Assembly (NCBI GenBank): GCA_903863845.1
Contig: CAIPDP010000053.1
Span: forward strand, 1 to 48,111
Length of the DNA stretch: 48,111 nucleotides
Source of the DNA: an uncultured Mucilaginibacter sp.
GTDB lineage: Bacteria > Bacteroidota > Bacteroidia > Sphingobacteriales > Sphingobacteriaceae
Reading direction: 5' to 3'
The notes under the pieces are model-generated. The model searched no databases. It was not told where the DNA came from and saw nothing but the letters and a program-made list of their open reading frames with translations. This document shows, one piece after another, positions 8,538 through 25,133 of the stretch. A program made the position numbers and the translations under genes. How positions within the stretch are numbered: position 1 is the stretch's first letter; every line of letters begins with the position of its first letter.

Positions 8538-8704
8538 AAGTTTGGAATTGGTTTTGGATAATGAATTAATCTAAGTTATATGCAGCAATGCAAATATGCA
8601 AATCTGCTTAGTTTTAATTTTTTAGGCTTTTTTTTAGTTTAATAGTTAGCGACAACAAATAAACAAAACATTTTTTTAAAATACCCACTTAGTGGCATAA
8701 GCTT

Positions 8705-9694
8705 TTAATAAGCCCATTTCAAGTAGATCGATCCCCAGGTGAAACCACCGCCAAAGGCAGCCAGTATCAGGTTATCGCCTTTCTTGAATTTATTTTCCCA
8801 CTCCCAAAGGCAAAGCGGTATCGTGCCGTTGGTGGTGTTTCCGTATCGTTCAATATTAATGATCACCTTATCGGCGCTCACACCGGTACGGTTAGCCGTA
8901 GCATCAATAATGCGTTTATTGGCCTGGTGCGGTACCAGCCAGGCAATATCTTCCGAATTTAAATTATTGCGCTCCATCACCTCAGCAGCCACATCGGCCA
9001 TATTGGTAACCGCAAACTTAAATACAGCCTGCCCTTCCTGGTAAGCAAAATGTTCGTTCGCCTCGATGGTTTCGTGTGTTGCCGGTTTTAACGAACCACC
9101 CGCTTTCTGATGCAAAAATGCCCTGCCCGAACCATCGCTTTTTAAAACCGAATCCATCACACCATAACCTTCGGTATTAGGCTCCAGCAAAACCGCGCCG
9201 CAGCCATCACCAAAAATGATGCAGGTAGCACGGTCTTTATAATTGATAATGGACGACATTTTATCGCCACCAACTACCAATACTTTAGTATGTTTTCCGC
9301 TTTCAATAAACTGCGCACCGGTAGCCAGCCCGAAAATAAAGCCCGAGCAAGCCGCCTGCAGGTCGTAACCCCAGGCATTTTTGGCGCCAATTTTATCAGC
9401 CAGCACATTAGCCGTAGCCGGGAAAGGCATATCAGGCGTTGTGGTACAAAAAATGATCAGTTCTATTTCGTCGGCGGTAATGCCGCGTTTTTTGAGCAAA
9501 CCTTCAACAGCCGGAACAGCCAGATCTGAAGTTGCCAGGCCTTCGCCTTTGAGTATGCGCCGCTCTTTTATTCCTGTGCGGGAGGTGATCCACTCGTCGT
9601 TGGTATCTACTATGGTTTCCAGTTCGTGGTTAGTTAACACATACTCCGGAACGTATCCATTGACGGCAGTAATAGCAGCATGAATTTTATTCAT
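8705..9694 (-). CDS. fabH: Beta-ketoacyl-ACP synthase III
   Basis: 329 residues, normal FabH length. Catalytic triad: C116 in [12 protein letters not shown]256 in VPHQANKRI and N286 in [12 protein letters not shown]. It starts fatty-acid elongation by condensing acetyl-CoA (or a branched acyl-CoA) with malonyl-ACP. It lies 16 nt downstream of plsX in the conserved yceD-rpmF-plsX-fabH order. Bacteria can carry a second fabH elsewhere; nothing here shows whether that is so. Confidence 0.96.
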
Positions 9695-11394: not shown

Positions 11395-11412
11395 TGAGCG
11401 ATAATTAGCCCG

Positions 11413-11420
11413 CAAATGTA
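11413..11420 (-). promoter_or_regulatory. -7 box of the yceD-rpmF-plsX-fabH operon
   Basis: On the minus strand this reads TACATTTG, a perfect TAnnTTTG. The expected transcript start lies about 7-12 nt downstream, leaving only a very short leader before the TTG at 11394. No well-spaced TTG -33 element was found. Confidence 0.5.
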
Positions 11421-11460
11421 GGGAAAAATACCGAATGTGGAAAAAAATATTCAAATAAGG

Positions 11461-11760
11461 TGGGCGGAGGGTGCCCCCTTTTGGCGGCTAAGGCTTGTGC
11501 AGTATAAGCGTACAGCCTGACCCGGAGGGGCACGCCTTGATCAGGTCAGTTAACTTTGCCTACTCCCGCCAAACCAAAAAAATCCTGTCTTTCAAATACC
11601 AATCCTGAAAATCGTGTTCAAAAAGGCAGGTATCCGCTGCCATCCTGCACGCAGCGATGGGGGCTAATAGGTTTGGTGGAGGTGTAAGTCTGGCAGTTGA
11701 GGCATGGGTACGCAACGCTTTAGCCGGCGGTGCATACGCGCGCAGAGAGAGGGAATATTG
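11461..11760. repeat. Repeat-dense gap left of the hipBST module
   Basis: No gene is visible. 11478-11515 is an imperfect inverted copy of 13860-13894 on the other side of hipBST. 11570-11631 is an inverted copy of the roughly 60-nt unit found three times at 13454-13795 (shared core GAACACGATTTTCAG). 11625-11654 matches 13894-13923 in direct orientation at 27 of 30 positions. The pieces are therefore interspersed repeats that bracket the toxin-antitoxin genes. Confidence 0.7.
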
Positions 11761-11784
11761 ATGTTACCCGATTATATATCAAAT

Positions 11785-11802
11785 AGTGCAATATATTGCT
11801 CT
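11785..11802. promoter_or_regulatory. Putative HipB operator O1
   Basis: 18-nt dyad AGTGCAATATATTGCTCT with half-sites AGTGCA and AGAGCA (reverse complement of TGCTCT). It lies just upstream of the hipB -33 element. The same half-sites, swapped, form O2 at 11847-11864; the centres are 62 nt apart, close to six helical turns. Confidence 0.65.
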
Positions 11803-11807
11803 TTCTG

Positions 11808-11838
11808 TTGCTATTTGCAATGCGTTTGCTTATTTTTG
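11808..11838 (+). promoter_or_regulatory. hipBST promoter
   Basis: TTG at 11808-11810, a 20-nt spacer, then TATTTTTG at 11831-11838, a perfect Bacteroidota -7 box. Transcription would begin near 11844, giving a leader of about 14 nt before the ATG at 11858. It lies between the two operator-like dyads, as expected for an autoregulated toxin-antitoxin operon. Confidence 0.7.
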
Positions 11839-11846
11839 TATTAAAT

Positions 11847-11864
11847 AGAGCACTATAATGCACT
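11847..11864. promoter_or_regulatory. Putative HipB operator O2, overlapping the start codon
   Basis: 18-nt dyad AGAGCACTATAATGCACT with half-sites AGAGCA and AGTGCA, the same pair as O1 in reverse order. The hipB ATG (11858-11860) is inside it and the predicted transcript start is at its left edge, so a bound repressor would block initiation. Confidence 0.65.
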
Positions 11865-12076
11865 TTAAGAAATTAATTCCTATGGTAAAGCAAAGACGCG
11901 AGTCTTTGCTGGTTACGCAGGAAACACTTGCAGAGCTGTCGGGAGTTGGCCTGCGCACGGTTAAACAATTTGAAAGCGGAAAGGGAAACCCCACCCTGAC
12001 CACCCTGCAAAAACTTGCCGATGCATTAGGGCTGGAAGTAACATTGAAAGTAAAGGCGACGCGTAATAACTCATGA
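11858..12076 (+). CDS. hipB: HipB-type antitoxin/repressor (XRE family)
   Basis: 72 residues, essentially one helix-turn-helix domain: VKQRRESLLVTQETLAELSG, then VGLRTVKQFESGKGNPTLTTLQKLADALG (about 10-60), with a short tail. It should bind the two dyads at 11785 and 11847 and repress its own operon. The last codons overlap the next start (ATGA at 12073-12076), implying coupled translation. It is the first gene of a three-gene hipB-hipS-hipT module. Confidence 0.88.
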   Translation: MHFKKLIPMVKQRRESLLVTQETLAELSGVGLRTVKQFESGKGNPTLTTLQKLADALGLEVTLKVKATRNNS

Positions 12077-12402
12077 GAAAGGCAGAAGTATTATTTAAAG
12101 ACCAATTAGCGGGTTTGCTGGTACAGGATGATGAAGGCTGGTTTTCATTTACCTACCAGCCCGAATGGGTTGAGGATAGCAGTAAACCGGCTATCAGCCT
12201 TACGCTGCCAAAGCGCCATGAGGCGTTCAGCTCGGAATATTTATTTCCGTTTTTTTACAACATGCTGCCGGAGGGGTCAAACAAACAGGTCGTATGCCAG
12301 CTGAACAGGCTAGACAGGTACGATTATTTTGGTTTGCTGACCACAATTGCAAAAACTGATACCATTGGTGCGGTAACCGTCCATAAAACAGAAAGCGAAT
12401 GA
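12073..12402 (+). CDS. hipS: HipS-like protein (separate HipA N-terminal subdomain)
   Basis: 109 residues corresponding to the N-subdomain 1 (Couple_hipA) that is fused to the kinase in classical HipA. Visible parts: EVLFKDQLAGLLVQDD, ISLTLP at 41-46 and FYNMLPEGSNKQ (LPEG at 65-68), all typical of that subdomain. In the described HipBST systems of E. coli the free HipS acts as the antitoxin of HipT while HipB gives DNA binding; by analogy this is the likely neutraliser here. It overlaps hipB and hipT by 4 nt each (ATGA). Confidence 0.85.
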   Translation: MRKAEVLFKDQLAGLLVQDDEGWFSFTYQPEWVEDSSKPAISLTLPKRHEAFSSEYLFPFFYNMLPEGSNKQVVCQLNRLDRYDYFGLLTTIAKTDTIGAVTVHKTESE

Positions 12403-13385
12403 GTATATCTGATATAGCATTTTGTCCCGGAACATTAGCGCCCGGTTGTGACACGTATAGCCGTACTTGCCAGGTTCGCGTATTTGATGGAAAAAAGGTA
12501 AGCCATATCCTGCCGTACTATTCCCCGGCCACAAATCCCGAAACGGATGAATTATTTGATGAAAACAGGAAGCGCATGTCCATTTCCGGCGTACAGGAAA
12601 AATTTTCCATATTGCTTGAAAAAAACAAATTAAGGCTGATCAATGAAGGCGAACGTGGAAGATACATTTTGAAGCCCATTCCCAATGCGGGCAGAAAGCC
12701 TGATCAAATGCCGGCTAACGAACACGTGACGATGCAGATCGCGCGCCAGGTATACGGTATTGAAACGGCTGAAAATGCCTTGATATTTTTCAAAAATGGC
12801 GCACCAGCCTATATTACCAAACGTTTCGATTTTAAATCGGATGGAAGTAAAATGGCACAGGACGATTTTGCTTCATTAGCAGGCAGGACACCGCAGACGC
12901 ATGGCGAACATTATAAATACAACGGCAATTATCTGGAGCTTTTTCAGCTATTGCAGAAATTTGTTCCGGCCTATAAACTTGAGGCGCCAAAGCTATTTAA
13001 GGTACTGGTATTTAATTACTTATTTTCAAACGGGGATGCCCATTTCAAAAACTTTTCATTACTGGAAACCTCTTTGGGGGATTACCGGTTAAGCCCGGCC
13101 TATGACTTATTAAATAGCCGCATTCACATAAATGATCAGGATTTCGCGCTTGATGATGGCTTGTTGCCTAAAAATTTGGCGCAGGGCAAGTTAGCACATC
13201 AATTCGGCGTTTTGGCTGAACAGGCAGGCATAGCTGAAAAGGTCTTTAACGATACCATGCAGTTGATGCTTTCCCAATCAGAAGCGGTAGCGCGTTTTAC
13301 AAATTCATCCTTTCTGGATGAAACCACCAGGCGAAATTATTGGCAGGCCTATCAGGGGAGACTTATACAATTGCAGAAAACGTAA
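12399..13385 (+). CDS. hipT: HipT-like serine/threonine kinase toxin
   Basis: 328 residues: the HipA kinase core without its N-subdomain 1. The glycine-rich loop reads KRMSISGVQEKFS with S61 and S63, the Ser-x-Ser arrangement whose serines are autophosphorylated in E. coli HipT. The ATP lysine is probably K92 (YILKP), the catalytic loop is NGDAHFKN at 211-218 (D213), and the metal site is AYDLL (D236). Known HipT phosphorylates tryptophanyl-tRNA synthetase; HipA targets GltX. The target here is unknown. The gene ends just before a repeat-rich stretch. Confidence 0.88.
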   Translation: MSISDIAFCPGTLAPGCDTYSRTCQVRVFDGKKVSHILPYYSPATNPETDELFDENRKRMSISGVQEKFSILLEKNKLRLINEGERGRYILKPIPNAGRKPDQMPANEHVTMQIARQVYGIETAENALIFFKNGAPAYITKRFDFKSDGSKMAQDDFASLAGRTPQTHGEHYKYNGNYLELFQLLQKFVPAYKLEAPKLFKVLVFNYLFSNGDAHFKNFSLLETSLGDYRLSPAYDLLNSRIHINDQDFALDDGLLPKNLAQGKLAHQFGVLAEQAGIAEKVFNDTMQLMLSQSEAVARFTNSSFLDETTRRNYWQAYQGRLIQLQKT

Positions 13386-14119
13386 GGCCTTAAATTCCGG
13401 TTATTTTTCTGTCTAACCTGCTGCGAATATACAGCGGATGGTAGGCGGGCCGTGTACTCGTGCCTGTTTTGAACACGATTTTCAGGATTGGATTTAGATA
13501 GACAGGATTTTTTTGGGTTGGCGGGGTTTGACGGGGCAGGGTATGAGGGGGTGGAGTACTCGTGCCTGTTTTGAACACGATTTTCAGGATTTTTTTTAGA
13601 TGGGCAGGATTTTTTAGGCTGGCGGTGGTATGCTGCCCATCGCTGTCCGAAGTGTTCCACTTCGGACCACTATGCCTGTAGTCTGCGACTACACGACGCT
13701 GGCGCGATGCAGCCTATGGTATGCCAGGGGAGTACTTGTGCTGATTTTGAAAACGATTTTCAGATTTTTTTTTAGATAGACAGGATTTTTTTGGCATGGC
13801 GGGAGTATACAGCGCTTGGTAGGCGGGTGGAGTACCCGTGCCTGACCCGTAGGGGCACGCTGTACGCTCATACTGCACAGGCCTTAGCCAAAAGGCCGGT
13901 ATCCGCTGCCATCCTTCATGCAGGGGGGGGATTGAGATTATAAATCTCTATTGATGAAACCTTTGGGTTGGGTTTAGTAATTGGGGCTTTGAAAATCGTC
14001 ACGAATCGCTTTTGTACGCCTGACCGCCGGTCAGAGACACTCTAAATTGGAGTCTATCACTTAAAACGAGGATTACCAATTGAACTAATACTTGCGTTAT
14101 ATATTTACCTTAATGACAT
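13386..14119. repeat. Repeat array between hipBST and the candidate defence operon
   Basis: No convincing gene. A unit of about 60 nt (gtactcgtgcctg, then GAACACGATTTTCAG, then a T-run after ACAGGA) occurs at 13454-13516, 13556-13617 and 13732-13795, all in the same orientation, with a fourth, inverted copy at 11570-11631. A different 54-nt element is at 13641-13694. 13860-13894 and 13894-13923 match sequences left of hipBST. From about 13930 to 14119 the DNA is not visibly repetitive and holds nothing I can name. Confidence 0.75.
13641..13694. repeat. 54-nt double-hairpin repeat, copy 1 (left flank of island)
   Basis: Contains two palindromes: GTCCGAAGTGTTCCACTTCG (followed by GAC), and TGTAGTCTGCGACTACA. 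A second copy at 22559-22612 in the same orientation matches at 51 of 54 positions. Together the copies bracket the whole operon 14120-22557. Confidence 0.88.
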
Positions 14120-14956
14120 TCAATCTGCCGCATCCTCTTCTTCAGCCAGAATATTTAATTCTTCAATTTCTGCCTTCCTTTCAAGATTCCTTTTAAAGTC
14201 CTTTAGGTAATTAAAAGTTATCATAAATGCTGGGTCTTTTGCTACGACAGGTTTGATAATGTTAAAATGATCCTTATTGGATATCGAATCGTAAAGACTA
14301 ATTCCCAACGAGGCACTTTCACTATCAACTATGAAATCTCTTTCACCGACAACCCTTCGAAAATCGATTTTTTGATCTATTCGCAACGCATCCCAATCCA
14401 TATTTAACTGACGTATGAAATCTGATTCTTCCCGACACATCTGAACTACCTGCCGCGATAAAAGCCCGAAAGGAATATCGAAATAGCTAAGACCAATATT
14501 TTTATACAATGTTGCGATATTTGAACCTTTATGCGGGGTTGCATAGGTGATCAAACCCTTCACCTTACCAACTTCTTTTGTTCTTTTTACAAGGTCAACG
14601 AGATATTGTCTTGCCACTAATCCTCCCATACTGTGAGCGACTATGATTACATTTGTATATTCTTTGCACACCTCATTGATGACTGTATTGAAACTATTAG
14701 CCAATACCTCGATCTTCGGCCCGGCTAGAAGCCATCTTTTTAGAAATCCATAAATGGGTATCTTTGAATCTATCGTATAAAGATCGTATTCAAGACCAAA
14801 AGATTCGTCATATATCCATTGTTTGGCGAGATGGCTGGAAAATGCTTCCCAAGTTTTTGTACTTCCAGCTAAACCATGTACAAATATTACACACGATTCA
14901 ATCGGCTCATTTTTACCTATCCGAGAAGGTAGGTTTACTTTATTAAATAAAGGCAT
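14120..14956 (-). CDS. Lipase-like alpha/beta hydrolase (PGAP1/SERAC1-like), last gene of the candidate defence operon
   Basis: 278 residues. The oxyanion segment is FVHGLAGSTKTW (H27, G28). The nucleophile elbow is AHSMGG at 107-112 with S109, and ATPHKGS follows at 139-145. A catalytic acid is likely D207 or D211 (ERDFIVDSE) and the histidine is probably H230 (NKDHFNI). No signal peptide is present, so it should act in the cytoplasm or on the inner face of the membrane. It begins 4 nt after the ParB-like gene. The fold covers lipases, esterases and thioesterases, so the substrate is open; a lipid-attacking effector is my inference. The C-terminus is acidic (AEEEDAAD). Confidence 0.82.
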   Translation of the reverse strand: MPLFNKVNLPSRIGKNEPIESCVIFVHGLAGSTKTWEAFSSHLAKQWIYDESFGLEYDLYTIDSKIPIYGFLKRWLLAGPKIEVLANSFNTVINEVCKEYTNVIIVAHSMGGLVARQYLVDLVKRTKEVGKVKGLITYATPHKGSNIATLYKNIGLSYFDIPFGLLSRQVVQMCREESDFIRQLNMDWDALRIDQKIDFRRVVGERDFIVDSESASLGISLYDSISNKDHFNIIKPVVAKDPAFMITFNYLKDFKRNLERKAEIEELNILAEEEDAAD

Positions 14957-14960
14957 CTGA

Positions 14961-16220
14961 TTAGCAAAGCTCTTTTAATGAAACAATTCGTCCTTCTAAA
15001 TCATTGATCAAACCTCGTTTTTCATCGTCCATCTCTTGCCTGAGTATATCTAGGTCGATCTGAAAAAGAGTGCTTTTTGCCCTTTTTAACAATCGCAAGG
15101 GTTCAAGTTTTTTCAATTTGTCACCCAATACGCTCTCATAATAAAATAAATTCTCATCTAAATCTTCCTCAACAGTTTCCTTCCATTTCTTATCAACCCA
15201 GTCAATAAGTTCCGCGGTTGTTTCATTTTTATTGGTCGATATAAGCAGGTCGAAATCAACATCTTCAGTTTTGTCAAGAATCTTTTTGTAATCCTTGACA
15301 AAATCTTTCCAAACATCCCCATAGCAGAAAAAACCATTTCTATTTGCAGGTCTAGCTATAACTCTCGTGCTAGCTACTGGAACGCCCAGTCTGATGTAAG
15401 AAAAATATGCTTTTTTGAGATCTTGAACATCGGCGTCCGTATAGTTCCAATCCACAACTTGTCTACCTGAAGACCCCTGGTATGATCTAAGATATTTATG
15501 TAAATCCACGAAATGGCCTTCTCTTTTCTCCAATCTTGTGTAAGTTTCAGGAGTGCCAAGATCATTTAAATAATCCTCCATTAGTTCAAGGATATTCAAC
15601 CATTCCTCAACTTGCTTAGTTCCTTCGGCCATTTTTCGAGCTATCTCGTCAACCGTAAAGAATTCCTTAAGTTCTTTACATCTTATGTATTTCTCAATTG
15701 GGTTGTAGTCAACTTTGCTATCAACTCCCATTTGATAGCTCGTTTCTAATGTGATAATCTCTTTCTTTTTGTCAATCAGCTTATCTGGCAGGACGACCGT
15801 CTTAAATAGACGATTTTCCCCCTTCCTAAGGTTGATCAAATTAAGAAGCATCGCACGCCTGTTACCGTCTATGATTACACCATCTTTCGTAATGATGCCG
15901 ACTTCTTGCTGACCAGTTAATTCAATACTTTCTATCGTTCTTTCATTTCTCGATTTGGCTGAATCATACAGAAATTGTTCAATAACCAGTTTATCTTGTT
16001 CATTTTGTGCATCGAGAGTATGAAATTGCGACTCGTAGGATAATGTTAAACTTCTGATACGACCGTTGTGCGCATTATATACTAAATATTGTAATGGCAC
16101 CTCATAAACATCATATAGGTCATAACTCCCATTATAACTAATTCTTTTAACTTCTCCAGTGGGTTGTAATGCTTGAATCGCATTTATTCTGATGTCTTCA
16201 GCAGATTGTTCTTGTTGCAT
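14961..16220 (-). CDS. ParB-like DNA/nucleotide-binding protein, paralogue 2
   Basis: 419 residues. A ParB/sulfiredoxin-type N-terminal domain is indicated by TKDGVIIDGNRRA (D118, G119, N120, R121, R122), the equivalent of the ParB nucleotide-binding GxRR box. It is followed by a predicted helix-turn-helix, FFTVDEIARKMAEGTKQVEEW at about 187-207, and a charged helical C-terminus. It is clearly homologous to the protein at 19285: shared ITKDGVIIDGNRRA, YQMGxDxKxDYNPIEKY, YTRLxKREGxFVDL. A 106-nt A/T-rich gap separates it from the nuclease gene upstream, so it may have its own promoter. Family members in modification/defence loci exist but the molecular role is unknown. Confidence 0.78.
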   Translation of the reverse strand: MQQEQSAEDIRINAIQALQPTGEVKRISYNGSYDLYDVYEVPLQYLVYNAHNGRIRSLTLSYESQFHTLDAQNEQDKLVIEQFLYDSAKSRNERTIESIELTGQQEVGIITKDGVIIDGNRRAMLLNLINLRKGENRLFKTVVLPDKLIDKKKEIITLETSYQMGVDSKVDYNPIEKYIRCKELKEFFTVDEIARKMAEGTKQVEEWLNILELMEDYLNDLGTPETYTRLEKREGHFVDLHKYLRSYQGSSGRQVVDWNYTDADVQDLKKAYFSYIRLGVPVASTRVIARPANRNGFFCYGDVWKDFVKDYKKILDKTEDVDFDLLISTNKNETTAELIDWVDKKWKETVEEDLDENLFYYESVLGDKLKKLEPLRLLKRAKSTLFQIDLDILRQEMDDEKRGLINDLEGRIVSLKELC

Positions 16221-16326
16221 TTAATGTGATAGGTTTGCTTGTTAAATATACATCTAAACTTTATAAGTTAATATATTCAACAATATTCTTAAAAAGGCTT
16301 ATTGGATTTTAATATTAGCTATTTCA

Positions 16327-17328
16327 TTAACTCACGCCATTTGTGTAAAATTTATAACTTTCGACATTTCTGTGCCAGTGTGAATTTTCAAAGATGTTTT
16401 TATATGGATCAGATATCATTAAAGGATTATAACCGGGTTTTCCAATATCTTCCCGATTAACAAGATAGATATAATATTGGTCCTTTTTTTCTTTGGCTGT
16501 TTCAATTTCGTTACTTGACCAATAAAAAGAAACATTTCCGGAAAAGGACTTAACCTCTATAAATCTATTAATGAGAATCGTTTCGACGTCATTAAAAGAT
16601 TCGATGTCGTATCCGGCATTGGTGTGGTCCTCCGAAATCCGACTAATCATACCAGATAGTGGATGCTTGCTTAATCTTCTTTTTTCGTACGCTAACACAA
16701 ATAGTTCGGCCTGAAGACCAAGTTCTTCTTGTGCTTTTTGTCTAGCCTTTAAATTTTCCAAGCTCAATTGCCGCTTTTGTTTAAGCAGAGCAGCCGTAGT
16801 CTTCATTTTGTCAATAACAAGTTTGTTAAAAAGACCGTGGTATTTATCATTAACATAAAATATCGTTCGAACATTAGGGTCTTTTAATAAAAGATCGGTG
16901 TTGATCAGAATCCTTTTAATTGTGGAATGCTTAATTGGTATATGGCTATCTCTTAGGTAATATTTTTCTTTATCGACACTAAATTTTACCGTGTTCGAAT
17001 TAAAGAAATCCATAAACTGCTGATTGAGTTCTAACAACCCTATTATTTTTTCGAAAAAAAAGCCGGAATCAAAAAGACTATCTCTGCCATAAATGTCCAA
17101 ATCGGGATTTCTACGTATTTTTCCCTTTTCGTAAATTACTAATTCCAAAGTTTTTAATAGTAAAATTGTGCTATTAAAGCAATTTCCAAATGAATAAGAA
17201 TAATGAAGGCATTGCGTTTTAATATCATCAATGCTTTTAGATGTATCTGACTTGAGTATATCGAATAGGATATAACCAATTTCTACTTTGGTGCCAATTT
17301 GATTATGATTAAGAAGTTCTTTGAACAT
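16327..17328 (-). CDS. DUF3883 (NO VEIN C-terminal-like) putative PD-(D/E)xK nuclease
   Basis: 333 residues. The N-terminal part (1-180) is unrecognised and helical. The C-terminal part (about 195-315) is a DUF3883-like domain: EELGLQAELFVLAYEKR (E208), AGYDIESFND (D241), RFIEVKSFSG (E258, K260), then FYWSSNEIETAKEK and YYIYLVNRED. The order E, D, ExK fits the restriction-nuclease-like fold. The gene overlaps the helicase gene by 20 nt (17309-17328), so the two products are probably made together. It is the most likely DNA-cleaving part of the system; cleavage itself is inferred. Confidence 0.8.
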   Translation of the reverse strand: MFKELLNHNQIGTKVEIGYILFDILKSDTSKSIDDIKTQCLHYSYSFGNCFNSTILLLKTLELVIYEKGKIRRNPDLDIYGRDSLFDSGFFFEKIIGLLELNQQFMDFFNSNTVKFSVDKEKYYLRDSHIPIKHSTIKRILINTDLLLKDPNVRTIFYVNDKYHGLFNKLVIDKMKTTAALLKQKRQLSLENLKARQKAQEELGLQAELFVLAYEKRRLSKHPLSGMISRISEDHTNAGYDIESFNDVETILINRFIEVKSFSGNVSFYWSSNEIETAKEKKDQYYIYLVNREDIGKPGYNPLMISDPYKNIFENSHWHRNVESYKFYTNGVS

Positions 17329-19288
17329 AATCCCTGATTAGAGCTTTGATATCATCGGATAGGTCAACTTCATAATCCATATTCATATTTATTAGCGGAA
17401 TTGGTTGGTTCTCAATTATATCAAGCATTCGTCGTTCCTTTTCGATTAACCGTGTGTGAACAGTTTCGTCAATAGAGCGCTCAGATAAGATATAATAGTA
17501 ATTTGTTGGATCGTCAGGTTTTAATCCAACTCTATGAATCCTGTCTTTCGACTGAAGAAAATTCGAAGCATTAAAATTCCTTTCAAGATAAATCGCATTA
17601 TGACACACCTTGTGTAAAGAAATAGACTCCGCCACGGCAAACGGATTAGCTATTAATACTTTAAAGTTTGAATTAGGATCGTGAAAATCTCGAATTATAC
17701 TTTCCCTTGTTTCGAACATTTCAGGTTGTGTATCTGTTTCAACAGGTATTTCTCCAATCAGCAATTTAGATGTAATCCCGTTTTCAAACAAAAATGATTG
17801 GAGCCCCTTAACTGTATGAATGAATGTTCCCCAAATAATGACCTTTTGGCCACTATGAATAATTTGTTTAACTATATCTTTAACAGCTATAAATTTTGCT
17901 GGAACCTCCTTTTCACTATAGTTCAATATATTCGATAATATTTCACTATCGTCTATGAAAAGATCACTGGTTATTCCTTCTTCGCTATAATATTTTTCAA
18001 TTGGTGATTTCAGTAGTTCTGGATTTGTTGCAGTTTGTAGCAGTCTAATGAATCTAGCTTTACTTAGTGTTGATGCTAGGTCTTTGTTGCCAGTGTTCTG
18101 TTCTTTAAAATAATCAATGTAGCTATTTTCAATAAAATCATAAATGCCTCTTTGCACTTCACCCATTTTAACAATGATAGGTTTATGCTCTGTAGCAGCT
18201 GGCAAGTTTAGATCTGATTTTCGTATTCTGATAAAAAAAGGTGATATATTCTCCACCAATTGTTTAACCCTAGGGTCAAAGCGATTAGCAGTCATATCCT
18301 TTAATTGGAATAAATGGAACTTGATTATATCCTTGTCAGGCCATATAAAATTATATAGATTAAAAATATCCTCAAATCCATTCGGGATTGGCGTGCCTGT
18401 TAATACCACTCTTGAAACACAATATTTCGCTATGGTTAAGACTGATTGAGCCCAAATCCCACCATCAGCATTCTTTATTTTATGCGCCTCATCAAGGACT
18501 ACCATAACCTTGTTTTTTTTAAGGTATAATATGATATTTTCTAAATTGAAAGCTACACTTTGATATGATAACAATGTAAGTTCAGGCGTTTCGTTAGGGT
18601 CTAAAATGGACAGCAGATGACCTTCTCTATCATCTTTTGATACACCACCTGATAATCTTTTTGAATTTACTTTGACACCAAAACACTCCTTATATTCATC
18701 TTCCCACGGACCAAAAGAACTTAATGGGCCTATAATGAATAGTTTATCTACGTGTCTCGGATCGTTTTCTTGTAGGCTTTTAAAAAATGAATATGCTCCA
18801 TAAACTACTGAAGTTTTACCAGCGCCTGGTACAGAAAAATTGCAAGCATTCATTGAGAAAGCTAAATGATAGGCAGCAAGAAGTTGCATGTCGTAGAGCT
18901 TTCTGTTTGTTAAATTCTTTTGAAGCGATTCTTTAAAAAATTTAAATTGTACAGGATCAATTTCATTATTCCATATCCCCTTTGCTTGTTTACTAAATAA
19001 TTTAAAGTTCTCTTCCTCGGAAATATATTGTTTTAAAACTTCTAAAATGGTGTCCCCATTAACGGTTTCAAAGCCGTACTTATTGAGAGCATCTTTTAAA
19101 GTAGTAAGTGTTCTTTCTTGTTCATCGATCTCATAAAATACGTTAATCACATCATCATTAGCCTGAAACCGTAAGTTGTCTGTGAAATAGAACTTGGCTC
19201 GCCTGTTATTTAATAATTGCTTTACTTCACCAGTTAAAATAAAAGCGGATTTGTCCTGGTCAATGTTGATAACAACTGCAGGTTTCAT
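17309..19288 (-). CDS. SNF2-type helicase/translocase
   Basis: 659 residues. Superfamily 2 motifs: PGAGKT at 154-159 (motif I), VVLDEAHKIKN with DEAH at 266-269 (motif II), VLTGTPIPNGFEDIFNLYNF from 295 (motif III, SNF2-like), and LQSKDRIHRVG at 578-588 (motif VI). About 130 residues before motif I are unassigned and may recognise DNA or a partner. Motif I lacks the usual DxMGLGKT of classical SNF2 proteins. The gene overlaps its upstream ParB-like neighbour by 4 nt and the DUF3883 gene by 20 nt. The likely job is ATP-driven movement on DNA that feeds the nuclease. Confidence 0.88.
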   Translation of the reverse strand: MKPAVVINIDQDKSAFILTGEVKQLLNNRRAKFYFTDNLRFQANDDVINVFYEIDEQERTLTTLKDALNKYGFETVNGDTILEVLKQYISEEENFKLFSKQAKGIWNNEIDPVQFKFFKESLQKNLTNRKLYDMQLLAAYHLAFSMNACNFSVPGAGKTSVVYGAYSFFKSLQENDPRHVDKLFIIGPLSSFGPWEDEYKECFGVKVNSKRLSGGVSKDDREGHLLSILDPNETPELTLLSYQSVAFNLENIILYLKKNKVMVVLDEAHKIKNADGGIWAQSVLTIAKYCVSRVVLTGTPIPNGFEDIFNLYNFIWPDKDIIKFHLFQLKDMTANRFDPRVKQLVENISPFFIRIRKSDLNLPAATEHKPIIVKMGEVQRGIYDFIENSYIDYFKEQNTGNKDLASTLSKARFIRLLQTATNPELLKSPIEKYYSEEGITSDLFIDDSEILSNILNYSEKEVPAKFIAVKDIVKQIIHSGQKVIIWGTFIHTVKGLQSFLFENGITSKLLIGEIPVETDTQPEMFETRESIIRDFHDPNSNFKVLIANPFAVAESISLHKVCHNAIYLERNFNASNFLQSKDRIHRVGLKPDDPTNYYYILSERSIDETVHTRLIEKERRMLDIIENQPIPLINMNMDYEVDLSDDIKALIRDYVQRTS

Positions 19289-20568
19289 TTACGCTTATCT
19301 TTAATTGTCTGTTTAAAGTTCCAAATGATCTCGTTCACCCGCTTTAATAAATTGTCTATTTCGGTATCTTCATAAAATCTTGGTACTTCTGTATTCACCT
19401 GTTCTAAAGTGTTGATAGCTCTTGAAATTAATTTTGATGGGGCGTTCGCTTCATTAGCATCCTCCAAAGTCCTTAAAGACTTGTTTAAGTTGCCCTGCAA
19501 TTGACCTTTTGCTTTTAAGGTCCAACCATCATCTCTTAGTTTTAATAGTTTAGGAAGTGAAACATCAGGGTTTTCCTCCCGAAGTTCATCAGGGGTCTTT
19601 TCGGAAGTATTGATCGGGTCAACCAAGTTGAAATGTTCATCTCTGAATTTTTCCCATACATTTTGTTTACAGAAGAAGCTTTCTTTTCCCGGTTTTGCTA
19701 TTGATCTAAATTCTTTACCTTCATATTGTGCCCTTATATAATCAAAGCAAATTATCTTTAGATCAGAAACATCGGATTGCTTATCATAGGGCCATTCTAC
19801 AGATGCAGTACCTGCTTTATATTTATTTAAATAGCCATTTAAATCGACAAATTGTCCTTCTCTCTTATCTAATCGTGTATATATTCCTGAATAACCTAAT
19901 GAATCAAGGTATTCATCCATAAGGCCCATGATTTCCAACCACTCTTCAACTTTGGAAATCTTTTCATTCATCATTTCAGCGATTTCCTTTGGCTTAAAGT
20001 TATTGTCAATTAATTGGTGACATTTAAGATACTTTTCAATGGGATTGTAGTCAAGTTTTTCATCTTCTCCCATTTGATAAGTGGTTTCCAACCGCATTAT
20101 CTCACGTGAATGAATTCCATCAAGTGCATCGTCCAATATGACGGCTAAAAAATAAGGTTGATTTTTAGAATCCTTATCATAATTCTTTTTAAGGATACTC
20201 GCTCTTCTGTTCCCGTCAATGATAACCCCGTCCTTAGTTACTATGCCATATCTTTTTTGCCCCCAACGGGCAAGGTCTTCCGACGTGCCTTTATTCCTGT
20301 CTTCTTTAGATTCCCATAAAAAGTTGGCAAGTATATCAGAGTCTTCCTCTTTAGCTGGATCAAGTTCATAAAATTGCCTTTCAAAAGATTTGGTCATGCT
20401 TAGGATACGGCCATTCCACTTATTGTATATCAGAAATTCAAAGGGTATTTTGTAAACACCCATTTTTTCCTTTTTGTTATCATAAACAATGTAGTCCTCT
20501 CTATCCGGAGTGGAGTTTTGTTTAATGTTTTGAAGTGCTTTGGTTCGGTCTTCCTGGTTTAATGGCAT
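19285..20568 (-). CDS. ParB-like DNA/nucleotide-binding protein, paralogue 1
   Basis: 427 residues, same architecture as the protein at 14961. Box TKDGVIIDGNRRAS with D118-R122 at exactly the same residue numbers, then the conserved YQMGEDEKLDYNPIEKYLKC, a helix-turn-helix-like FKPKEIAEMMNEKISKVEEW (191-210), YTRLDKREGQFVDL, and a coiled, basic C-terminus (TIKDKRK). It is placed directly between the methyltransferase (2-nt gap) and the helicase (4-nt overlap), so it is probably a core part. A DNA-sensing or modification-sensing role is inference. Confidence 0.78.
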   Translation of the reverse strand: MPLNQEDRTKALQNIKQNSTPDREDYIVYDNKKEKMGVYKIPFEFLIYNKWNGRILSMTKSFERQFYELDPAKEEDSDILANFLWESKEDRNKGTSEDLARWGQKRYGIVTKDGVIIDGNRRASILKKNYDKDSKNQPYFLAVILDDALDGIHSREIMRLETTYQMGEDEKLDYNPIEKYLKCHQLIDNNFKPKEIAEMMNEKISKVEEWLEIMGLMDEYLDSLGYSGIYTRLDKREGQFVDLNGYLNKYKAGTASVEWPYDKQSDVSDLKIICFDYIRAQYEGKEFRSIAKPGKESFFCKQNVWEKFRDEHFNLVDPINTSEKTPDELREENPDVSLPKLLKLRDDGWTLKAKGQLQGNLNKSLRTLEDANEANAPSKLISRAINTLEQVNTEVPRFYEDTEIDNLLKRVNEIIWNFKQTIKDKRK

Positions 20569-20570
20569 GG

Positions 20571-22286
20571 TTAATTACAATTGGCTTTGGTTGAAATTTT
20601 ATTGATAGCGTAAAGAGCTAAAATCTGTTTTTTGGGGATTAGTTCCTTTTTAAAGATAGAATTGTCAGTTGGCTTGTATAATGGCTCTTTAAATTTGATG
20701 TCGTTGATCAAATTAGCGACTGATTCAACAAGTTGAGTTGGTTCTAAGAAATTTTCTAAATTCTGCTGTTGTTCATACATTTGTTGTAGGAATTCACTAT
20801 TTGCAATTTTTTCGGCAAACCCATTATTGATTACCTTTAAAAAATGATTGCCATTTTCAAATTTTGAAATGATTGGTTCCAAATCTTTATAAAAATTATC
20901 AGGATAAATATCATGCGGAAAACCTTCTCCATTCCCGTACTGGATTGAAGTTAACCATTTGCTTATTTCTTTATCGTTTTTTATAATATCATAATTTGAA
21001 AGTGTAACTGTCAGATTACCTTCTTTAAACGGATGCCTTCTAAAACGTGACCCAATAGCACGTTTAGGTGTCGAATTAAATTTTTTAGCTGTATAGGTGT
21101 TCAGATTGTGTACGCCGTTAAGGTTAACAGTTTGTTGTATCCTAAACTCTGACAATACAGGAAGTTTAAGTTCTTGTCGCACTAACCCAGCGAATGTTCT
21201 GCTAACGGTTGCGCAAACTGCATTTCCTACCAAGCGCCACTTTGTGCCCTCACTTCCTATGAACTGATAGGTTATAGGAAATCCCATGATGCACGCAGCC
21301 TCCCTTACCGTAGGGGTACGAAACTCACCGTTACCAATCCTATTATATTCTGATTTGTAAATTATAGATTCACGTGATGTTCCAATCTTTGTAGCCGTAA
21401 TCGTCCGACTTGGCTTAGTTTCATTTTCAGGGAATGACATAAAACCCATGTACGGATGGTTGATCTTTAAAAAACGTGAATTTTTCCACTCGCATTCATA
21501 TAAGCCAGTATCGTAGAAATGATCTGACAATTCAGATTGTTTTATACTTAAATAGCTATATAACGGATCGTTTACTAGTTGCTCTTGAAATACTTCATTA
21601 GGTTTCGGTAGTTTGCTTTTAAGGAAGCCTAATGTCTTAAACTGAAGAAGGTTGGGTTCAAAAATATCGGCGCTAGCACCGTGGGTTTTTTCGGGGATTA
21701 TTAACTTCTCCTTAGAAATAATTTCACCAGTAATTACTCTTTTACGCGACTGAGGACATCCATATTCCGCTGAATTAATCACAATGCTATTACCTTCAAT
21801 TTTAATAGCGACTTTTGTAGGGCTGATTCGATATTTTTTTGCCCATTCATAAAGTCCAAGATCTTGAAAGTTATACTCCCTCGCAAGGTAGTTAGTGGAA
21901 TTGGTAACATTCTCCATAAACCAAGCCTTAAGCTTAGAATTTGGATGGAACTTTTTAACAGCTACAATTTTTAAAAACGTTTCGGTTAATGTTACCCCCA
22001 TAGATTTATCAGCTTTTCCTGATCGATTTGAACTTGAAAAGCTCACACAAGGAGGGCTTCCCAAGATCACATCTGTATCGGGCAATGCCTCAATAAGATC
22101 AACGTTATCCTTAAAGTTCAATATATTTGTAAGGATGCCCTTATTTTCGCCGAAATTATGAGAGTAGGTATCTATAGCGGGTTTCCAATAGTCGTAGCCG
22201 TTTACAATCTCAAATCCTTGTTGTCTAAACCCTTCCGAAAACCCTCCAGCGCCACAAAAAAGATCGATCACAGTAATATTATCCAT
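20571..22286 (-). CDS. DNA (cytosine-5) methyltransferase with C-terminal extension
   Basis: 571 residues. Conserved m5C motifs are complete: motif I VIDLFCGAGGFSEGF (6-20), motif IV GSPPC with catalytic C80, motif VI ENV (125-127), motif VIII QSRKR (179-183), motif IX around TITATKIG, and motif X VGNAV (353-357). The target-recognition part would be about 190-290. A further 190 residues after motif X (380-571) are unusual and unassigned. In the operon it would protect host DNA or mark it for the helicase/nuclease. A truncated vsr lies 22 nt upstream, as with Dcm-Vsr pairs. Confidence 0.92.
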   Translation of the reverse strand: MDNITVIDLFCGAGGFSEGFRQQGFEIVNGYDYWKPAIDTYSHNFGENKGILTNILNFKDNVDLIEALPDTDVILGSPPCVSFSSSNRSGKADKSMGVTLTETFLKIVAVKKFHPNSKLKAWFMENVTNSTNYLAREYNFQDLGLYEWAKKYRISPTKVAIKIEGNSIVINSAEYGCPQSRKRVITGEIISKEKLIIPEKTHGASADIFEPNLLQFKTLGFLKSKLPKPNEVFQEQLVNDPLYSYLSIKQSELSDHFYDTGLYECEWKNSRFLKINHPYMGFMSFPENETKPSRTITATKIGTSRESIIYKSEYNRIGNGEFRTPTVREAACIMGFPITYQFIGSEGTKWRLVGNAVCATVSRTFAGLVRQELKLPVLSEFRIQQTVNLNGVHNLNTYTAKKFNSTPKRAIGSRFRRHPFKEGNLTVTLSNYDIIKNDKEISKWLTSIQYGNGEGFPHDIYPDNFYKDLEPIISKFENGNHFLKVINNGFAEKIANSEFLQQMYEQQQNLENFLEPTQLVESVANLINDIKFKEPLYKPTDNSIFKKELIPKKQILALYAINKISTKANCN

Positions 22287-22308
22287 GATCGGAATATAGA
22301 CAGATGTT

Positions 22309-22557
22309 TTAGTTATTTAAAATCAAATTTTTCAGCTTTTCCACAACACTACCAATATTCGCTTTTATCTCACATTCCCAAACAGTTAAAACTTTCCAAC
22401 CTAAATTATTAAGGTCCTTTTCCTTTCTTTGATCTCTATTTAAATTTTTAGAAAATTTCCCAGTCCAAAACTCTACATTACTTTTAGGAAAATTGGGTTT
22501 ACATATAGAGCAGCGATGCCAAAAGCACCCATTAATAAATATGGCTAGCTTTTTCCC
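22309..22557 (-). pseudogene. 5'-truncated vsr (very-short-patch repair endonuclease)
   Basis: The surviving frame aligns with the C-terminal two thirds of Vsr: LAIFINGCFWHRCSIC, EFWTGKFSKNLNRDQR, and LGWKVLTVWECEIK, ending at 22309. Normal Vsr has some 55 more N-terminal residues that include the metal-binding catalytic Asp (PGxPDxV); here they are absent and the sequence runs straight into the 54-nt repeat at 22559. An ATG inside the repeat (22576-22578) keeps the frame open as an 89-codon chimera, but this would lack the catalytic Asp. I treat it as a broken gene. Confidence 0.82.
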
Positions 22558-22558
22558 C

Positions 22559-22612
22559 CGCTGTCCGAAGTGTTCCACTTCGGACCTCTATGCCTGTAGT
22601 CTATGACTACAC
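22559..22612. repeat. 54-nt double-hairpin repeat, copy 2 (right flank of island)
   Basis: Same element as 13641-13694, with three substitutions, one of which is in the linker and two in the loop of the second palindrome (TGTAGTCTATGACTACA), so both stems are preserved. Its left edge is the exact point where vsr similarity stops. Confidence 0.88.
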
Positions 22613-23128
22613 CATACACCAAAAATGCCGCCTTAAGCATATAGAGCGGCCTCCTAACCCCCAGGACATTAACTTTCATCACCATTCCCGGTCGCAAAAC
22701 ACCCAACCACCTCAAAATCAACCCCTAACCACCCAATACAAAAACCACCGTACACCCCTACACTCAAAAAGCGCATTTCGACGGGAAATACAGCTGTAGA
22801 TCAGGCAATTAGGTGATGCAAAATATGCACGATCGGCGGAGGAATTAAAAGGCTGTAAAAGAGCACTTTAACAGCAGGTGCAAATAGTCACCGTGCATAT
22901 TTGCGCATTTCGGGATGCAAGTAACTGGTGATGAGGGAATTGCGATTTCCGGTCGGCGTGGGTATTTTGAACACTTAAGCCGCTGAGGGTAAGGTGCTTA
23001 CAAAAACTGTTCAAATTAACCGGAAATGTGGGCGCCCAATTTGATGCGTTTTTAGGCTTAAAACGGCATTTTTAAAGCGTTTTAACCGCACTGGTACGCA
23101 TTTTACGTGAACATTAAGCGATTTTACA
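22613..23128. other. Intergenic stretch without a recognised gene
   Basis: 22690-22770 is nearly free of G on the plus strand (C- and A-rich, minus strand G-rich with several GG/GGG runs). 22814-22830 (core AAATATGCACG-like) and 22892-22907 form an interrupted inverted repeat (TGCAAAATATGCACG against CGTGCATATTTGCGCA). A hairpin with arms GGCTTAAAACG and CGTTTTAACC at about 23058-23086 lies downstream of pdxA and could help terminate it, though no T-run follows. The short open frames here have no coding character. Confidence 0.5.
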
Positions 23129-24184
23129 TCAATCCCTGTCCCGGCTCAGCTTGGTAATGACGAGGGTATTTTCGGTCAGTTCGGCCGTTTCGCGGCGGCG
23201 TTTAATGATGTGGATCGCAGCAAATAGCGCCTCGCGGAAGGATTCGTCTGATGCCTCGTTCTTACCTGCGATATCATATGCTGTTCCGTGGTCGGGCGAG
23301 GTACGTACAAAGCTTAACCCCGCCGTATAATTTACCCCCGATTCAAAGGCGATCTGCTTAAAAGGGATCAGGCCCTGGTCGTGGTACATGGCCAGTACGG
23401 CATCAAATTTTTTGTAGGAATCGTTACCAAAAAAGCCATCCGCTGCATAGGGCCCGAAAGCCAGAATATTGGCCGCACGTGCATCATTGATGGCAGGTAC
23501 GATGACCTCCTGCTCTTCATTGCCGATCAAACCATTGTCGCCGGCATGGGGGTTTAGTCCCAACACGGCTATCCTTGGCTTTTGGATCCAGAAATCTTTT
23601 TTCAGACTCTCGTTCATCAGCTTCAGTTTGGCCAATATCTTTTCAGACGAAATAGATTTTGACACCTCAGCCAATGGTATATGGCCGGTAACTACGCCTA
23701 CGTGCAAGTCATCGCTCACCAAAAACATCAGCACCTCGCTGGCGCCAGCGCGTTCCTGCAAATATTCAGTATGTCCGGGGAATCTGAAATCCTCGCGCTG
23801 TATATTATCTTTATTGATAGGGGCCGTAACCAGGGCATCAATTTCGCCGGCTACCAGGTCGTCAACCGCCCGCTGCAGCGAAAGAAAAGCATATTTACCA
23901 CCTGTTTCGTTCACTTCGCCCAAGTCTATCTTTACATCCTCTTCCCAGCAATTGATCAGGTTAGCCTTGTTGTGCTGCACCTGTGAGGGGCTGTTGATCA
24001 CAAAAAAATTAAGCTCGTTGCCAGGAATAGATTTGCGATGAAAGGAAGCCACCTTGGTATGGCCATAAACAATGGGCGTGCAGTAATCAAATATCTTCTG
24101 GTCCGACAGTGTTTTGATGATCACTTCCAGTCCTATACCATTCACATCACCTATACTGATACCTATTTTTAGTTTACTGCTCAT
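23129..24184 (-). CDS. pdxA: 4-hydroxythreonine-4-phosphate dehydrogenase
   Basis: 351 residues. The family start KIGISIGDVNGIGLEVIIK, the metal-binding HTEYLQERAG, and MYHDQGLIPFKQIAFESGVNYT are visible. PdxA oxidises 4-phosphohydroxy-L-threonine in the deoxyxylulose-5-phosphate-dependent pyridoxal phosphate pathway. It is divergent from rsmA across 163 nt, a pairing common in bacteria. Confidence 0.96.
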   Translation of the reverse strand: MSSKLKIGISIGDVNGIGLEVIIKTLSDQKIFDYCTPIVYGHTKVASFHRKSIPGNELNFFVINSPSQVQHNKANLINCWEEDVKIDLGEVNETGGKYAFLSLQRAVDDLVAGEIDALVTAPINKDNIQREDFRFPGHTEYLQERAGASEVLMFLVSDDLHVGVVTGHIPLAEVSKSISSEKILAKLKLMNESLKKDFWIQKPRIAVLGLNPHAGDNGLIGNEEQEVIVPAINDARAANILAFGPYAADGFFGNDSYKKFDAVLAMYHDQGLIPFKQIAFESGVNYTAGLSFVRTSPDHGTAYDIAGKNEASDESFREALFAAIHIIKRRRETAELTENTLVITKLSRDRD

Positions 24185-24347
24185 TTTTTGATTATTTAGT
24201 CATTCGGCACTGGTCGATGGGCATTAGAATCCATGATCGCCATGCGCCAACCGCCTTGCGCACTCACCACCCACAAAGATGCAAATAAAATATTTTACCT
24301 GTTACTGGCACAAATATGTATAATTTGCGCAAATATTTGAATCGGGC

Positions 24348-25133
24348 ATGTCACTGGTACGGGCAAAAAAACATCTGGGGCAACACTTTCTGACGGATAA
24401 AAATATCGCCGCCAAAATTGTGAACAGTCTGCGCCCTGCCGAAAACAGCTACAGCGAAGTGCTTGAGGTGGGCCCCGGCATGGGCATCTTATCCGATTTT
24501 TTATTGCAGCGAACCGATCTGCAAACTTTTTTGATTGATATCGATACCGAGTCGTACGAGTTTCTTCAGAAAAAATACCCCCAAATGGCTGAGCGACTAA
24601 TTAATGATGATTTCCTGGAGATGGATTTCGGCAAAATATTTCAGCGGCCTTTCGGTATCATCGGCAACTTCCCGTATAATATATCTTCGCAGATACTATT
24701 TAAAGTGCTCGATAACCGCCAGCAGGTGGTTGAGGTAGTTGGCATGTTTCAGAAAGAAGTGGCCGAACGCTGCGCAGCCAAACCCGGCAGCAAGGAGTAC
24801 GGTATCCTGAGTGTTTTTTTGCAGGCCTATTATAAGGTTGAATATTTGTTTACCGTGAAGGCCGGTGTATTTAACCCCCCGCCCAAAGTGTTATCGGCCG
24901 TTATCCGTTTAACCCGTAACCAGACTGCCGATCTTGCCTGCGACGAAAAATTGTTCTGGCAGGTGGTAAAGGCCGGTTTCAACCAACGGAGGAAGACGCT
25001 GCGCAATGCCGTTTCATCCCTCATCAATAAAGAAAAAATGACCACAGAGCCTCTGCTGGACCTGCGCGCCGAGCGCTTGAGTGTAGCTGATTTTGTGGCG
25101 CTAACAAATAAGATCACAGAGAACCGATCATGA
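24348..25133 (+). CDS. rsmA: 16S rRNA (adenine1518/1519-N6) dimethyltransferase
   Basis: 261 residues (KsgA). Start KKHLGQHFLTDKNIAAKI, SAM-binding EVGPGMG at 40-46, and catalytic motif NFPYNISSQ at 107-115. The C-terminal FNQRRKTLRNAVSSL is also typical. It dimethylates two adenines near the 3' end of 16S rRNA in late 30S assembly. Its last codon overlaps the next start (ATGA, 25130-25133). Confidence 0.97.
   Translation: MSLVRAKKHLGQHFLTDKNIAAKIVNSLRPAENSYSEVLEVGPGMGILSDFLLQRTDLQTFLIDIDTESYEFLQKKYPQMAERLINDDFLEMDFGKIFQRPFGIIGNFPYNISSQILFKVLDNRQQVVEVVGMFQKEVAERCAAKPGSKEYGILSVFLQAYYKVEYLFTVKAGVFNPPPKVLSAVIRLTRNQTADLACDEKLFWQVVKAGFNQRRKTLRNAVSSLINKEKMTTEPLLDLRAERLSVADFVALTNKITENRS

Follow-up and report, generated by a model that had tools for sequence, protein, structure and literature searches.

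Two ParB-like paralogues with separate partner genes behind one cytosine methyltransferase in an uncultured Mucilaginibacter: a candidate defence island

ParB clamps have known roles in chromosome partition, nucleoid occlusion and gene regulation. DdrB-type ParB domains occur in phage and plasmid proteins (PMC5512222), a table entry from 2013 places a HEPN family in an operon with a 'ParB nuclease' and a DNA methylase (PMC3710099), and the ATPase of DndI, as reported in PMC11662687, is stimulated by phosphorothioated DNA. In Lamassu, according to PMC10586767, the N-terminal effector domains of LmuA include an alpha/beta hydrolase, its variable C-terminal part may dock other components, and activation is expected to destroy the infected cell. 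Here we describe two ParB-like proteins, ParB-1 and ParB-2, encoded between positions 14,961 and 20,568 of a stretch of 48,111 nucleotides (nt) from an uncultured Mucilaginibacter sp. (GCA_903863845.1, contig CAIPDP010000053.1, positions 1 to 48,111; the window in what follows), in a gene island with a C5-cytosine DNA methyltransferase, an SNF2-type helicase, a putative NOV_C nuclease and an alpha/beta hydrolase. Our searches of an open-access library brought up no restriction-modification locus described with ParB, SNF2 and NOV, or with ParB and a Lamassu-type hydrolase.

Each ParB copy has its own partner, and both stand behind one methyltransferase; the window is therefore a composite, in which a single cytosine methyltransferase is combined with two ParB-effector cassettes. 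We consider it an even call that this is a defence island, where the methyltransferase would be accompanied by two ParB-type clamps sensing unmodified sites, each of them switching its own effector.

The partnerships were read from 43 loci with 45 family ParBs, taken from genomes, viral contigs, plasmids and phages after near-copies had been dropped. The gene following ParB encodes an SNF2 protein in 38 of the 45 cases (directly in 37, and in locus L028 behind an open reading frame (ORF) of 162 aa), a hydrolase in five and neither in two; among the viral loci SNF2 comes after ParB in nine of ten, the remaining one (L042) being incomplete. The ParB-1 set, with the SNF2 helicase after ParB and often a NOV/DUF3883 nuclease after that, is widespread, and this helicase cassette is found alone after a methyltransferase of the window's type in L007, L008, L009, L011, L022, L023, L024, L050 and L077, as is the hydrolase cassette in L002 and L005. 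The five hydrolase-linked ParBs (window, L002, L003, L004 and L005) form one clade (support 98/98); the unity of the 22 close helicase-linked rows as a group is uncertain (54/10). Pairwise identities of ParB-1 correlate with those of SNF2 (r 0.92, 17 loci, Mantel p 0.001), of NOV (r 0.76, 16 loci) and of the methyltransferase (r 0.49, 11 loci, Mantel p 0.002), those of ParB-2 with the hydrolase (r 0.96, 5 loci, Mantel p 0.036) and with the methyltransferase at r 0.19 (4 loci, Mantel p 0.44). A first-pass annotation of the window had suggested a split role, one copy working by the methyltransferase and the other by the lipase: ParB-2 does go with the lipase, but ParB-1 is tied to the helicase and nuclease over the methyltransferase, given the r of 0.92 with SNF2 as against 0.49. 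The island and its borders comprise the following features.

19285..20568, minus strand: ParB-1, 427 aa; ParB/Srx N-domain at about 36-171, helix-turn-helix (HTH) domain at about 160-303, helical C-terminal part
14961..16220, minus strand: ParB-2, 419 aa; architecture like that of ParB-1, in the hydrolase-linked clade
17309..19288, minus strand: SNF2-type helicase/translocase, 659 aa; Pfam SNF2-rel_dom E 3.6e-20, Helicase_C E 3.3e-5
16327..17328, minus strand: NOV_C/DUF3883 putative nuclease, 333 aa; Pfam NOV_C E 6.7e-16
14120..14956, minus strand: PGAP1/DUF676-like alpha/beta hydrolase, 278 aa; Pfam PGAP1 E 1.1e-14
20571..22286, minus strand: C5-cytosine DNA methyltransferase, 571 aa; Pfam DNA_methylase E 9.1e-38
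22309..22578, minus strand: 3' remnant of a vsr-type gene, 89 aa; 5' part absent at the flanking repeat
22559..22612, plus strand: right copy of a 54-nt direct repeat, 94% identical to the left copy
13641..13694, plus strand: left copy of the 54-nt direct repeat

Along the minus strand the order is vsr remnant, methyltransferase, ParB-1, SNF2, NOV_C, ParB-2 and hydrolase. From methyltransferase to hydrolase the genes overlap (ParB-1 and SNF2 by 4 nt) or lie at most 4 nt apart (the hydrolase starts 4 nt after ParB-2), with the sole exception of a 106-nt gap between NOV_C and ParB-2. The shared strand and the tight spacing agree with the one operon that had been annotated, save for the gap between the nuclease gene and ParB-2, which leaves a single transcript unproven. 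Only one methyltransferase was seen in the island, common to both cassettes. In an alignment of seven chosen NOV_C sequences, the window's among them, the motif GYD[IL]...FIEVK is conserved in all seven.

Both ParB ORFs are present where they had been annotated, on one strand, and they are indeed full-length ParB-like paralogues with the named motifs in common, aligning at 38% identity across 416 residues (E 2e-83), which lies far outside what chance would give. Their motifs had been described as identically placed, which holds for TKDGVIIDGNRRA, at residues 111-123 in both, but not for the other two, shifted by 2-3 residues: YQMGxDxKxDYNPIEKY occupies residues 162-178 in one paralogue and 164-180 in the other, KREGxFVDL residues 232-240 and 235-243. 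The difference between the C-terminal parts had been overstated; identity drops, from 45% in residues 1-250 to 29% in 251-419 and 24% in 321-419 (numbering of the 419-aa protein), but the alignment extends to residue 417. In Pfam the sole match of ParB-1 and ParB-2 was ddrB-ParB, below cut-off, with no match to DUF262 in either, and across the family the hints were ddrB-ParB and, once, HTH_ParB, all below cut-off. Close and distant family members align over 410 columns (E 5.9e-52). When profiles were compared with chromosomal ParBs (25 of 30 loci, picked by a motif), the 27 close members aligned in the HTH region (44 columns; E 5.3e-5, probability 67%), and the 18 distant members placed GNRR onto GERR and the stretch preceding the HTH onto the 'LNxIE' segment of ParB (E 8.9e-4, probability 23%), each E-value referring to one profile pair. 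Against one chromosomal ParB alone the match was weak (E 0.023), and the ParB profile found nothing meaningful among the sequences of solved structures.

Structure prediction, proposed in the first-pass annotation as a check of the ParB/Srx fold, bore it out. AlphaFold2 models from 21-row alignments reached a mean predicted local distance difference test of 91.3 for ParB-1 and 90.0 for ParB-2, and these confident models match KorB, Noc and ParB over the N-domain and the HTH domain, sulfiredoxin ranking lower. The top solved match was KorB (8qa9; Z 10.5 and 4.4 Å over 196 residues for ParB-1, Z 11.2 and 4.1 Å over 195 for ParB-2), and the N-domains alone fitted Caulobacter ParB (7bm8) at 1.8 and 1.9 Å over 93 residues (Z 9.1 and 9.8). 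Both models thus have the fold in the N-domain together with the HTH domain that defines the ParB superfamily, a stronger test of membership than a match to the Pfam family PF02195.

The conservation of the pocket extends throughout the family. R54, Q104, G114, G119, N120, R122, E161, Q165 and Y174 (ParB-1 numbering) are invariant in 45 of 45 ParBs, and N52 and R121 are each kept in 44. Q58 and E102 of Caulobacter crescentus ParB have been proposed as possibly catalytic residues (PMC8367383); in our reading of the alignments N52, N120 and E161 would correspond to Q58, E102 and the 'EN' box, the GNRR/GERR equivalence coming from profile alignment and that of N52 and Q58 from a reading of motifs. 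The proposed CTPase catalytic pair is not kept, Asn standing at both aligned positions (N120 in 45/45, N52 in 44/45). The residues suggest a nucleotide pocket, which might bind its ligand without hydrolysing it in the way of ParB. A nucleotide-gated clamp with CTP had been considered for the pair, and the conserved signature favors the nucleotide, but with Asn at the position of the proposed catalytic Glu in 45/45 CTP as the ligand is not assertable. In a survey of the fold, as given in PMC12704722, 11 of 28 purified proteins were binders of CTP, ATP or GTP and 17 bound none of them, mutation of the box-II arginine abolished nucleotide binding, and the choice of nucleotide was not predictable from sequence.

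The family lives close to restriction-modification genes. In 39 of the 43 loci the fetched stretch contains a DNA methyltransferase, called by similarity to the window's enzyme, by Pfam or, in L029, by the annotation of the record, and several kinds were met: C5-cytosine, D12 N6-adenine, N6_N4 (undistinguished) and Mod with an EcoP15I-type C-terminus. A classical restriction nuclease adjoins ParB in at least nine loci, such counts being lower bounds, as Pfam was run on chosen neighbour genes: enzymes of DpnII/BanI type in L032, L033, L034 and L040, of BglII type in L084 and L088, of MutH type in L003 and L081, and a type III Res with Mod in L030; in L078 a DpnII match fell below cut-off. The window itself has the NOV_C protein and a truncated Vsr, and no classical restriction enzyme above the Pfam cut-off among its seven island proteins. 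For the streptococcal loci a SpyI prophage system was considered and rejected, the gene table in PMC4260502 showing a LlaJI-type enzyme.

The putative effectors are more varied. The window hydrolase matches the LmuA model at E 1.2e-12 over model positions 10-189 of 343, and all five cassette hydrolases match its first 200 or so positions (E 9.5e-12 to 3.6e-16); since only the N-terminal part of LmuA is matched, the hydrolase looks like an effector part without the Lamassu dock, and by analogy of position ParB-2 may occupy the place of the Lamassu SMC-like sensor in the gene pair. S109, D207 and H230 are invariant in 5/5 hydrolases, a presumed Ser-Asp-His triad in which D207, as we read the sequences, would be the Asp. 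Among the sequences of solved structures the hydrolase retrieved one weak esterase (E 0.0036). Eight viral loci carry a hydrolase relative, and the two scanned for Lamassu genes, L121 and L122, have it adjoining LmuC and LmuB; in L126-L128 the match falls within proteins of 870-876 aa. Of the plasmid records, 14 match the hydrolase, and two examined were without an annotated ParB nearby. In L080 (8846-10963) a Swt1-like HEPN domain and the ParB family domain are parts of one protein; its gene lies next to two for C5-methyltransferases, and an SNF2 helicase was not seen nearby. The SNF2 proteins of L029, L079 and L081 carry a PLD-like domain at 26.4, 26.6 and 22.9 bits, against a Pfam cut-off of 27. 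In L051 a nucleoside-phosphorylase family gene (PNP_UDP_1, 8220-9062), possibly another effector, directly precedes a ParB-SNF2-D12 methyltransferase set. In L022 (6636-9865) an integrase-core (rve) gene stands between the two pieces of the SNF2 gene.

Several records were left out of the sample: L025 (ParB in two frames, 326 and 89 aa); L035, L036 and L042 as near-copies of L034 or L033, L042 being also incomplete; L049, identical to the record of L003; L012-L021, L043-L048, L053-L070 and L073-L075, short stretches of loci already counted; and the matches L071, L072, L076 and L119. L041 holds a second, weak ParB-2 match (E 3e-4) that the family profile missed. The family is sparse: genomes with members number 8 of 395 in the window's phylum, 11 of 398 in that of L006 and 5 of 398 in that of L004, counts that include the seed genomes and weak distant matches. 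The ParB-2 profile was found in one of 197 genomes of L005's family, namely L005's own, and in two of 148 of L002's genus (L002's own and one distant match). On plasmids ParB-1 and ParB-2 each match 68 records, all below 60% identity; the neighbourhoods of ParB were read in three plasmid records and in one of four phage records. A scan of viral contigs with the ParB-2 alignment gave no relatives.

If the island is indeed a defence locus, a possible order of action is as follows. Each ParB would use its HTH domain to recognise the target site of the methyltransferase when unmethylated. Its ParB/Srx N-domain, on taking up a nucleotide, would shut into a clamp, and in this closed state it would turn on the effector of the adjoining gene. 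ParB-1 might in this way load the SNF2 translocase and the NOV nuclease, leading to a DNA cut, and ParB-2 might release the Lamassu-type hydrolase to attack the cell, probably its membrane lipids, as a last resort. Having separate partners and separate outputs, the two ParBs would be parallel sensors rather than a heteromer, and the system is best read as an accessory arm of restriction-modification with interchangeable effectors. A wider proposition, which we put forward tentatively and with clearly less conviction, is that the ParB clamp could be a general alarm for 'missing methylation', mounted on many kinds of restriction-modification, swapping effectors and bringing death when restriction fails. 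Such an alarm would cover cytosine-5 and amino-methyltransferases, type II and type III systems, and would command a helicase-nuclease, a HEPN RNase, perhaps PLD, and a Lamassu-type hydrolase, two alarms sharing one methyltransferase in the window.

A number of points weigh against a defence role of this kind. What the computation shows is the fold, the fidelity to partners, the structure of the clades, the conservation of pocket residues and the nearness to methyltransferase and restriction genes; a defence role as such, the reading of unmethylated sites by the ParBs, gating by a nucleotide, the switching of effectors, the order of action and phage protection by either cassette are inferred. 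No methyltransferase was seen in the fetched stretches of L006 (at a contig edge), L031, L079 and L085, that of L029 is about 8 kb away, and the 39 of 43 stands without a random-locus control. The sequence likeness to chromosomal ParB is weak, the better profile match spanning its 44 HTH columns only, and PF02195 (ParB_N) found no match in 12 of 12 family ParBs scanned (both window ParBs and ten relatives), which also makes the family easy to overlook in annotation. On the structural side, the Foldseek E-values were modest (best 9.5e-4 and 2.2e-4, with probability 1.00), Z scores below about 13 may, by the aligner's own caution, reflect a common helical-bundle arrangement, and several whole-chain fits to nucleotide-bound ParB had a root-mean-square deviation of 9-11 Å. 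Since Asn replaces the proposed catalytic Glu and Gln, a clamp cycle driven by hydrolysis may not operate. The correlations of identity owe something to shared ancestry, the ParB-2 set consists of five loci, and the loci are partly non-independent, L011 and L022 being near-identical and L088 lying within the genome of L002.

The strongest competitor, which we nevertheless rate as rather improbable, makes ParB-1 the specificity or loading subunit of an ATP-dependent restriction enzyme composed of ParB, SNF2 and NOV, with the hydrolase cassette an unrelated neighbour; the two ParBs would then be related by descent without working jointly with the methyltransferase. The usual core in the family is ParB with SNF2 next (38/45), and ParB-1 tracks SNF2 best; the 106-nt gap sets ParB-2 apart, in L004 the hydrolase cassette is divergently transcribed, and the identities of ParB-2 and the methyltransferase are uncorrelated (r 0.19, 4 loci). 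Against this, the hydrolase cassette adjoins a methyltransferase of the window's kind by itself in L002 and L005, and a set of MutH, 5mC and Vsr genes in L003, and from these neighbourhoods it has a DNA-modification link of its own.

An unlikely explanation is that the ParBs are transcriptional regulators, comparable to KorB, DndB or controller proteins, which set when methyltransferase, nuclease and hydrolase are expressed. By Z the repressor KorB ranks first for both models, and the proteins have an HTH domain, but the ParB gene stands tightly before the effector gene, in many cases with an overlap, its identities go with those of the effector, and a regulator of the operon would need no separate copy for each effector in one locus.

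That ParB-1 and ParB-2 form a heteromeric clamp, joining both effectors on one DNA, is very doubtful. The composite was found twice, in the window and in L004, a metagenome-assembled genome of another phylum with a record titled gammaproteobacterial. Only these two loci show two copies, so that the paralogues do not travel together: the fetched stretch shows a single copy in 41 of the 43 loci. An obligate heteromer is thereby not supported, the result coming near the refutation that the first-pass annotation had set for itself, namely homologous loci always with one copy. Searches of whole genomes found one family member each in those of L005, L006, L007, L008, L009 and L011, and the genome of L002 holds only a distant second member with its own set. 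Least credible of all is the idea that the ParBs are NTP-regulated nicking nucleases to which the neighbours add further activities, for although a survey of phage and plasmid proteins cites nuclease and NTPase activities of several ParB/Srx domains, including a nicking ParB-methylase fusion (PMC5512222), and Pfam hints at ddrB-ParB and, once, at HTH_ParB below cut-off, the models keep the two-domain DNA-binding ParB architecture and for 43 of the 45 ParBs the partner, SNF2 or hydrolase, is encoded by a gene of its own.

Should a branch of ParB prove to read DNA modification and to gate killer proteins, it would be a new type of sensor in immunity and would tie restriction-modification to abortive infection. 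One sensor family with swapped effectors is a directly testable case, and the window and L004 offer a natural experiment, with two sensors on one methyltransferase.

The island looks like an acquired block, because it sits between the 54-nt repeats and the right copy coincides with the lost front of vsr; it may have been exchanged through recombination between the repeats. The vsr remnant matches TIGR00632 at E 3.2e-21 (75.8 bits, cut-off 97.85). It aligns with five relatives of 147-149 aa, its missing front coinciding with the right repeat copy, and no vsr-like front half was noticed by eye in three frames just upstream. G+C per kilobase is 0.32-0.38 across 14 to 22 kb and mostly 0.43-0.49 elsewhere in the window, where other stretches also fall to 0.38-0.42. 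The 54-nt repeat has palindromic stretches, and parts of it recur as two shorter copies on other contigs of the genome, C77 (4339-4377) and C171 (21053-21083). Just outside the island, at 12073-13385, a HipA-like kinase is split into overlapping genes for Couple_hipA (109 aa) and HipA_C (328 aa), and degenerate direct repeats about 100-180 nt apart (13429-13851), with inverted copies at 11486-11623, flank the HipA genes on both sides. An Rfam scan of 11400-24400 gave no match.

Set beside the known systems, the window ParBs resemble the CTP-dependent clamps ParB, Noc and KorB in their two-domain fold, a ParB/Srx N-domain with HTH, and in the box motifs that align for distant members, and differ from them by GNRR in place of GERR and by the extra helical C-terminal part. 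Partition ParB differs also in its surroundings, the neighbours here being methyltransferase, SNF2, NOV_C and hydrolase, with no adjoining ParA gene, although the distant relative L029, counter to that rule, has ParA-annotated genes upstream. A role in chromosome partition was rejected, because the genome has another ParB on contig C60, its sole PF02195 match, with a ParA-like gene (read by eye) adjoining it. From PADLOC and NCBIfam came matches to Vsr and LmuA besides generic ones for helicase, methyltransferase and NOV. With DISARM and Zorya the island shares an SNF2 helicase adjoining a methyltransferase, and matches to DrmD (40 of 610 bits) and ZorD (42 of 1500 bits), which stay far under the curated cut-offs and reflect generic helicase similarity; of further genes of these systems, only DrmA (weak, by the helicase) and DrmMII (by the methyltransferase) were among the matches listed. 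With Lamassu it shares a hydrolase related to the alpha/beta-hydrolase part of LmuA, and LmuB and LmuC were not among the matches listed for the seven island proteins (for the methyltransferase, the best 25 of 51). The DUF262 proteins of GmrSD, SspE and DndI, and DndB, are alike in having a ParB-superfamily NTPase domain beside DNA-modification genes, but DUF262 proteins are described with a DGQQR box and HNH nuclease partners, whereas the window has HTH ParBs, GNRR and separate effector genes. The island comes close to type III systems and to type II restriction-modification with Vsr through the methyltransferase and Vsr, and through relatives with DpnII/BanI, BglII, MutH or Mod/Res, the window differing by its added ParB-effector sets. 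ParB-superfamily proteins in modification-linked defence are already known, and we place the arrangements of ParB with SNF2 and NOV, and of ParB with the hydrolase, among them as a new variant.

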